41,555 bases of DNA, taken from positions 1 to 41,555 of IMG/VR virus record IMGVR_UViG_3300044712_002650. The stretch is one strand, 5' to 3'. The notes beneath the pieces were generated by a model. It ran no database searches. It was not told where the DNA came from and saw only the letters and a program-made list of their open reading frames with translations. This document shows, piece by piece, positions 384-1,503 of the stretch. Positions within the stretch are counted from its first letter, which is position 1, and the number at the start of each line of letters is the position of its first letter. The stretch comes from a virus. Position numbers and translations under genes: made by a program.

Positions 384-450
384 ACGCTGCGGCGCGAACG
401 GTCACCGTAGGGTGTGCCTGGCTGGTGTTCTCCAGCCTAGCCCGCAGCGT
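384..450. repeat. Inverted repeat bracketing the methyltransferase stop
   Basis: ACGCTGCGG (384-392) is matched by CCGCAGCGT (442-450), a perfect 9-bp inverted repeat 49 bp apart. Nested in it, GGCTGG (420-425) and CCAGCC (432-437) form a small hairpin overlapping the methyltransferase stop codon. No T-run follows on the minus strand, so it is not a classical terminator; it may protect the 3' end of the last late transcript. Function is inferred. Confidence 0.45.
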
Positions 451-1189
451 CGAATCCCTCTCCCCGGAGCCGCTCGACCGCCACGTTAAAGTAGTGCGGG
501 CTGGCCTCGATTCCAACGAAGGTTTTGCCCTGCTTTAACGCAGCCAGGCCGGTGGTCGCGGACCCCATGAACGGGTCCAGAATCCGGGCGCCACAGCCAG
601 CAACCAGCTCCTCCATCAGGGGCAGCGGCTTGCCTACCTGGTGGAGCTTGCCGCCTGCCTGCGGATTGACCCGGAAAACCCCAGCCGAGTAGCGCTCGCC
701 GCGCAGGCTTCCCTTGCTGCCCCACACGACGTATTCGGCCTGGCTGCGGAAGCCGCCTTTGCGTGGCCGGGCCCCACCAGTTTTGTCCCACACGGCGATG
801 CCTTGCCAGGTGATGCCGGCAGCCTGCATGGCGTCGGTAGTGATCGGGAGCTGACGCCAGTCGCTGAACACAAGCATCAGGCCACCTTCGGCTAGGCGTT
901 CCTGGCACATGCCCATCCACAGGGCCGACCAGTGAAGGTAGGAGCGCTGATCTTTGGTGTCGCCCAGGAAGTCGGGGAACCTGGCGTGGCCGGTGTTGAG
1001 GTACTTGTCGCCCGTGGATCTGGCGCGGTCGCCTTTGGACTGCCCGCCGGAGCTGTAGGGCGGGTCGGTCACTACGGCGTCGAACTGGCCCGCCAGGTGC
1101 GGCAGGACCGCAAGGCAGTCGCCCTGGTAGAGGTCTGCGCCCTTGAGGGCTATAAGGTTGTTAAAGAGCGGGGTCTTGCTGGGTGCCAT
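437..1189 (-). CDS. DNA methyltransferase (N4/N6 amino-MTase) in the mom position
   Basis: A 250-residue site-specific DNA methyltransferase using S-adenosylmethionine. Catalytic motif DPPY is at residues 42-45. The SAM-binding motif LDPFMGSATTG lies near the C-terminus, followed by GIEASPHYF. This order (catalytic first, SAM second) is the beta class of exocyclic-amino methyltransferases; N4-cytosine versus N6-adenine cannot be decided by eye. There is no target-recognition domain of a restriction partner and no nuclease nearby, so it is an orphan phage enzyme. ATG at 1187-1189 has an AAGGA Shine-Dalgarno. The start lies inside the com-like gene (29-nt overlap), the same arrangement as Mu com-mom. 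It probably protects phage DNA from host restriction. It is last in the late operon. Confidence 0.92.
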   Translation of the reverse strand: MAPSKTPLFNNLIALKGADLYQGDCLAVLPHLAGQFDAVVTDPPYSSGGQSKGDRARSTGDKYLNTGHARFPDFLGDTKDQRSYLHWSALWMGMCQERLAEGGLMLVFSDWRQLPITTDAMQAAGITWQGIAVWDKTGGARPRKGGFRSQAEYVVWGSKGSLRGERYSAGVFRVNPQAGGKLHQVGKPLPLMEELVAGCGARILDPFMGSATTGLAALKQGKTFVGIEASPHYFNVAVERLRGEGFDAAG

Positions 1190-1349
1190 CGGTCTTTTCC
1201 TTGCGGATCGACGCTCGATGGCGTTCTGGTTCGGGACTCGTGGCCCTCAGCAGATTCAGTGTCCCGCAGCGCGGGCACTTGATGGCGATGCGGAGGTAAT
1301 CCGCCTCGGCCAGTTTTCGGTTGCATTTACCGCATCGGAGGATTTCCAA
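1161..1349 (-). CDS. com: Com-like zinc-finger translational regulator
   Basis: A 62-residue protein with two CxxC pairs (C6/C9 and C25/C28) and a basic, charged tail. Length and spacing match Mu Com, the zinc finger that binds mom mRNA and opens its translation start. The start is TTG at 1347-1349, because an in-frame TGA lies just upstream and no ATG is available. Its last 29 nt overlap the methyltransferase start. No good Shine-Dalgarno precedes it, so translation may be coupled to the small ORF that ends at 1327 across this start. Family assignment is strong; control of the downstream methyltransferase is inferred from Mu. Confidence 0.85.
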   Translation of the reverse strand: MEILRCGKCNRKLAEADYLRIAIKCPRCGTLNLLRATSPEPERHRASIRKEKTDGTQQDPAL

Positions 1350-1503
1350 GATTCATGCCGTTTGCGTGGTAGCCTTCGGCCCGCTGTGTACACAGCACGG
1401 TGCCTTGGCCAAACGCAGGCTGCTTCTGCGGGAGGTGGCCGGCCGGGTGTTCCACCACCCGCGCCGGTCGCACCGTCTTATCGTTGTTATGCGTCCCAGT
1501 CAT
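1327..1503 (-). CDS. Possible small ORF overlapping com (58 aa)
   Basis: A 58-codon frame starting at ATG 1501-1503 and ending at TAA 1327-1329. It overlaps the end of the preceding gene (stop at 1487) and the TTG start of com. No recognised domain; the product is basic with GTHNND and PARVVEHP segments. The ribosome site is weak (GGGCGG). Its main support is position: without it there would be a gap of about 140 nt in an otherwise gapless operon, and com would lack an upstream ribosome. It could also be a non-coding leader of com. Confidence 0.35.
   Translation of the reverse strand: MTGTHNNDKTVRPARVVEHPAGHLPQKQPAFGQGTVLCTQRAEGYHANGMNLGNPPMR

Follow-up and report, generated by a model that had tools for sequence, protein, structure and literature searches.

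Twin Com-type hairpins before a phage DNA methyltransferase gene point to a translational switch shared with Mu com-mom

By comparing com genes and their neighbors across phages, we found that RNA hairpins of the kind known as the target of the zinc-finger protein Com stand before DNA methyltransferase genes as well as before mom. In the phage studied here, com and the methyltransferase gene that follows it likely form a translationally controlled pair, in which Com would hold two hairpins at the end of its own gene and so free the methyltransferase AUG; that Com controls the methyltransferase is argued from comparative evidence and the Mu precedent. The stretch of DNA analyzed in full, referred to as the window, comprises 41,555 nucleotides (positions 1 to 41,555 of IMG/VR virus record IMGVR_UViG_3300044712_002650) and contains the following features of the pair.

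1161–1349, minus strand: com, a 62-aa CCCC zinc-ribbon protein with a TTG start
437–1189, minus strand: beta-class N6/N4 DNA methyltransferase, 250 aa, ATG start
1234–1246, minus strand: H1, the first Com-type hairpin, GGGC-CACGA-GUCC, inside com
1211–1224, minus strand: H2, the second Com-type hairpin, ACGC-CAUCGA-GCGU, inside com
1210–1222, minus strand: predicted start-hiding stem, 5' arm GCCAUCGAGCGUC, overlapping H2
1185–1194, minus strand: predicted start-hiding stem, 3' arm GACCGAUGGC, containing the methyltransferase AUG (1187–1189)
1194–1202, minus strand: methyltransferase ribosome site AAGGAAAAG, in the loop region between the stem arms

The com product matches Pfam PF10122 (Zn_ribbon_Com; E 8.5e-18, 64 bits against a cut-off of 22.9) and PHROG 6417 ‘translational regulator’ (E 2e-20), and its four zinc cysteines (C6, C9, C25 and C28, in the pattern CxxC...CPRC) are invariant across the alignment. 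With an in-frame TGA two codons upstream and the finger running from codon 6, com cannot start at any codon but TTG, and a purine-rich ribosome site is not seen ahead of it in the window, just as the first-pass annotation had stated; a TTG start also occurs in several Com relatives. Because of this start and the lack of an evident ribosome site, com is probably weakly translated. Where Mom (PF25680) was looked for as the next gene, we found instead an N6/N4 methyltransferase (PF01555 N6_N4_Mtase, E 1.3e-23), which is also identified by a PHROGs search; the nearest NCBIfam models are DNA methyltransferases, all below their cut-offs, and DPPY precedes DPFMGSATTG (a DPFxGS motif of the SAM-binding FxGxG type), which is the beta order. 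These matches confirm that a Com homologue overlaps the start of a beta-class methyltransferase by 29 nt (shared bases 1161–1189). Such overlaps are the rule among the 87 Com loci compared, where com runs into the next gene in 97% of cases, with a median overlap of 32 nt.

The genes in the remainder of the window (transposase, portal, terminase, sheath, major head and baseplate) are those of a Mu-like transposable phage; two tRNA-Lys genes, presumably the host's, lie directly outside the phage region. An exact 203 bp tandem duplication at 2184–2589 (copies 2184–2386 and 2387–2589), in which the last part of one tail gene and the first part of the following one are present twice, reflects either a recent event or an assembly artefact.

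The presence of a methyltransferase instead of Mom had been singled out at first pass; the pairing itself is real, but it is not unusual. We gathered 186 Com loci in collections of phages, viruses and genomes and assigned the class of the next gene by sequence comparison with references, since choosing the longest open reading frame had mislabeled a few loci, and partner families were checked by Pfam on representatives. The next gene was an alpha-class (D12) adenine methyltransferase in 76 loci, a beta N6/N4 methyltransferase in 74, an ABC-ATPase/GNAT protein in 10, Mom in 6 and a C5 cytosine methyltransferase in 5, leaving 15 without class; the three DNA methyltransferase classes thus outnumber Mom by about 150 to 6, in counts that lean to Coms resembling the query. 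For that reason, a second sample was picked by Pfam profile alone, from 200 genomes of the order to which one Burkholderia belongs. Its 17 com genes were followed by alpha (11), beta (2, one of which, L218, carries a weak label), C5 (1) and ABC/GNAT (3) partners, and by Mom in none. A methyltransferase in Mom's place is therefore a common arrangement, and one already annotated for phage Smp131 and, in GenBank, for phages B3, KS5, AP3 and Chuche.

Two further kinds of partner deserve mention. The ABC/GNAT loci (L038, L067, L153, L081, L062, L069, L094, L105, L020 and L076, and also L214, L216 and L219) are ordered com, then an ORF of about 50 aa (...GKNGYKYREQYGVIILC...LRVVTV), then a fusion of an ABC-type ATPase and GNAT of about 375 aa; most of them keep Com-type hairpins, and the small ORF and the fusion may be a candidate DNA-modification pair of a new type. 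In L104 (2652–4133), com is followed by a 493-aa protein with a PF01555-like methyltransferase part and, judged by eye, an apparently ParB-like N-terminus, which represents another partner type.

What Com recognizes is known from a selection (SELEX) of artificial RNA with the Com protein of Haemophilus sputorum, which yielded CC(N)2-3GAG in a hairpin loop closed by C-G and favored a bipartite arrangement, with the motif often present twice (PMC6483171, Nowacka et al. 2019). The site in Mu, GAAUGCCUGCGAGCAUCCC, is built alike and adjoins a stem containing the mom GUG (PMC6483171); methyltransferases are not mentioned in the text of that paper. In the window, the 3' end of com encodes two tandem 4-bp hairpins with loops C-N2-3-GA, and both H1 and H2 match the selected motif in loop and closing pair, so that the known target of a Com protein, besides Com itself, precedes unrelated methyltransferases. 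From this likeness, we infer that the window's Com binds H1 and H2. The gene pairing was already known, and the RNA element before methyltransferases appears to be new: a literature search, thin on subscription journals and hence compatible with an earlier description, found neither a Com site before methyltransferases nor an experiment on any Com–methyltransferase pair.

The hairpins are widespread and conserved as structure. At least one Com-type hairpin is present in 179 of the 186 Com loci, and a regular-expression count found 324 of them against 33 in an equally long upstream stretch. In alignment A3 (91 sequences), 98.8% of the cells at hairpin pairs are paired, a figure that holds for regularly spaced sites because the alignment leaves out 25 of 116 non-redundant loci, most for insertions or atypical spacing; slid controls gave 10–57%. 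All eight hairpin pairs (8/8) show compensatory changes in this alignment, with 81 double-change cells against 13.3 ± 5.9 after shuffling, and RNAalifold recovered the identical eight pairs with no structure given. When the same proteins were recoded synonymously, 6.6 ± 2.8 hairpins (maximum 16) were left, compared with 167 observed; since recoding destroys nearly all of them, coding does not explain the hairpins, and both this test and the regular-expression count are independent of the selection made for A3. A covariance model of the element recovered its own position in the window at 60 bits, with no score above 12 bits in the rest of it, and in the 200 genomes all 12 of its matches fell inside com genes, covering 12 of the 17. 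Rfam 15 has no family at the hairpin element and gave one sub-threshold match elsewhere in the stretch.

Folding of 1140–1260, which the first-pass annotation had proposed as a check, predicts a stem that takes in the methyltransferase AUG, at a z-score of -1.8 that is by itself no proof of a start-hiding stem. As H2 overlaps the 5' arm, H2 and this stem would be mutually exclusive. For most methyltransferases, the switch region also contains a ribosome site of the enzyme's own. Across 87 loci, with start codons picked by rule and some possibly wrong, H2 paired with its own start region at -11.9 kcal/mol versus -10.16 ± 0.25 kcal/mol when the regions were swapped between loci (z -6.7), and a downstream control stretch in these loci showed no own-versus-swapped effect with H2. 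The effect is present within the window's beta group, the alpha group and Mom, and persists under 65% identity (57 loci, p < 1e-4); for the AP3-like loci (p 0.055) and the C5 loci (p 0.47), the start-pairing test alone was not significant. In the close set, 73% of the cells of the start-hiding stem are paired versus 23–43% in slid controls, and its double changes fall mostly in one column pair (G-C to C-G), a much weaker signal than that of H1 and H2. In the model, the start codon becomes more open when the hairpins are imposed, going from 0.30 in the free fold to 0.57 (0.49 and 0.55 in shuffled sequences); for the window's AUG, the predicted openness goes from 0.16 to 0.71 with the hairpins forced. 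The forced-hairpin state is 7–10 kcal/mol less stable than the free fold, and Com must accordingly bind tightly or act during RNA synthesis. In Mu, the start stem is a separate neighboring hairpin, which makes the overlapping form a variant, and forcing H2 has no effect in the model.

The following course of events is the likely reading of these observations. When Com is lacking, the start region of the methyltransferase would pair back onto H2 within com and bury the AUG. Late in phage growth, with enough Com present, the zinc finger would bind the CC(N)2-3GAG loops of H1 and H2, which would then stay formed and release the AUG and ribosome site. Com binding would thereby raise translation of the methyltransferase, which could then mark the phage DNA. 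Transcription yields H1 and H2 ahead of the start region, which could let Com act on the message during its synthesis. A plausible role, suggested at first pass, is the prevention of premature modification; the pair would serve to postpone modification and to shield the phage DNA from restriction. Smith and Jeddeloh (2005), cited in PMC4553209, reportedly described induction-dependent phage DNA methylation.

Some of these observations would also suit a Com that binds the hairpins chiefly as an autoregulator, shutting down or stabilizing its own message, with the methyltransferase translated by simple coupling: the sites lie inside com, nearly all of the 87 loci have overlapping genes, and the window's com, with its TTG and no evident ribosome site, is probably weakly translated. 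We consider this unlikely, as the complementarity of H2 and the start evolves as a unit within loci, most methyltransferases carry a ribosome site of their own in the switch region, and what Com does in Mu, the precedent, is to activate the gene that follows (PMC6483171).

Some annotation names suggest that Com is a DNA-binding transcription regulator of the methyltransferase, and a variable perfect palindrome upstream of com might be taken as its site.

1383–1396, no strand assigned (.): perfect palindrome GCTGTGTACACAGC, upstream of com

Loopless palindromes that differ in sequence lie about 40–60 nt upstream of com in most loci, reaching at least 10 bp in 61% of loci versus 13% after shuffling. 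They vary widely and are self-complementary to the center (GTAC, CGCG, GATC, TGCA, TCGA and others), and loops of 3 or 5–9 are not enriched, so that the feature seems to belong to the DNA and not to the RNA. However, the palindrome differs between loci with identical Com (L005 and L007), a Com protein whose specificity has been measured recognizes RNA hairpin loops (PMC6483171), and the covarying structure is strand-specific RNA located at the start codon; Com as a DNA-binding regulator is thus very improbable. That the palindrome is the methyltransferase's own target was also tested and not supported, given identical Coms with 94.7% identical methyltransferases and centers of GTAC versus GATC. 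The flanks of the palindrome (GGCCAAGGC ... AGGCTAYCACG; window 1360–1412, minus strand) are conserved upstream of com across loci, and in differing reading frames, which marks the stretch as probably regulatory for com rather than a gene.

Finally, with the hairpins falling in a coding region and many loci having similar Com tails, the repeated motif might be taken to reflect conserved amino acids of that tail (LRAxSPxPExxxAS). This idea can practically be dismissed, because recoding keeps the protein and loses the hairpins (6.6 versus 167), all eight pairs change on both sides, and in a Com relative the zinc finger alone binds RNA, with the tail dispensable for binding (PMC6483171).

Returning to Com as the switch of the downstream gene, the proposal at first pass that this switch is a transferable module gains strong support at the RNA level from hairpins conserved ahead of methyltransferases of the alpha, beta and C5 classes and ahead of Mom. 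By the favored reading, the same switch is common to these four and probably to the ABC-ATPase/GNAT protein, and hairpins standing before several unrelated enzymes suggest that phages swap the enzyme and keep the safety catch. Of the Coms in the tree set, the one closest in sequence to the window's (L003; 82% over 44 columns) stands before a C5 methyltransferase. Moreover, a leader ending in LFNN follows the switch in beta (MAPSKTPLFNN in the window) and alpha enzymes (MFKRTPLFNN in L013 and MTRKTTLFNN in L042) whose catalytic domains belong to different families, as expected if enzymes were exchanged behind a kept switch and leader. The Com tree (45 columns, two starred branches) has 32 partner changes versus 44 when shuffled, and is too short and poorly resolved for us to claim a count of partner swaps. 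More tentatively, the 3' end of com could be a self-contained protein-sensing switch, twin hairpins against start-hiding stem, that is traded as a cassette among unrelated modifiers, the ABC-ATPase/GNAT protein and its small partner included.

Experimental work on Com has so far treated it as the regulator of one odd enzyme, Mom. By the data presented here, Com would act in many temperate phages as the gatekeeper that controls, at translation, DNA modification in general. The site is precise enough for base-by-base mutation, making a phage's delay of its own DNA modification testable in many systems, and genes adjoining com, such as the ABC-ATPase/GNAT pair, become candidate DNA modifiers. The Com zinc finger is already in use as an RNA tag, and the loci supply a large natural set of Com–RNA pairs for a hairpin-binding zinc finger.

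Among phages with annotated pairs, Pseudomonas phage B3 (L021) has an overlapping pair as in the window (ORF47, Com translational regulator, and ORF48, Dam modification methylase), and both hairpin regions can be aligned with the window's, whereas its methyltransferase is of the alpha-class D12 adenine type; its record carries no description of an RNA site. In Burkholderia phages KS5 (gp21/gp20) and AP3 (gp28/gp29), Com precedes an N6/N4 methyltransferase of the PF01555 type with a 23 nt overlap, a pairing published as annotation only (PMC3091744). Both hairpins are present in AP3 (L022), as in the window; KS5 and AP3 are P2-like phages, in contrast to the Mu-like window, and the methyltransferase is about 42% identical.

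Mu com-mom and the window share a CCCC zinc-finger gene that, at the right end of the phage, precedes a DNA-modification gene and runs into it, a CC(N)3GAG hairpin before the start, and a start codon within a stem, which in the window is predicted. The first-pass annotation had put the pair in the exact place of com-mom, which is right as to its position beyond the tail-fibre genes of a Mu-like phage and less so as to the overlap, 29 nt in the window versus 80 nt in the Mu record as annotated. The partner is a beta-class DNA methyltransferase instead of Mom, the Com-type hairpins are two in tandem instead of one, and the start-hiding stem overlaps H2, whereas in Mu it stands beside the hairpin. 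In anatomy, the window's system is of the same kind as Mu com-mom, from which it departs in its enzyme, in having twin hairpins and in the overlap of the start stem.
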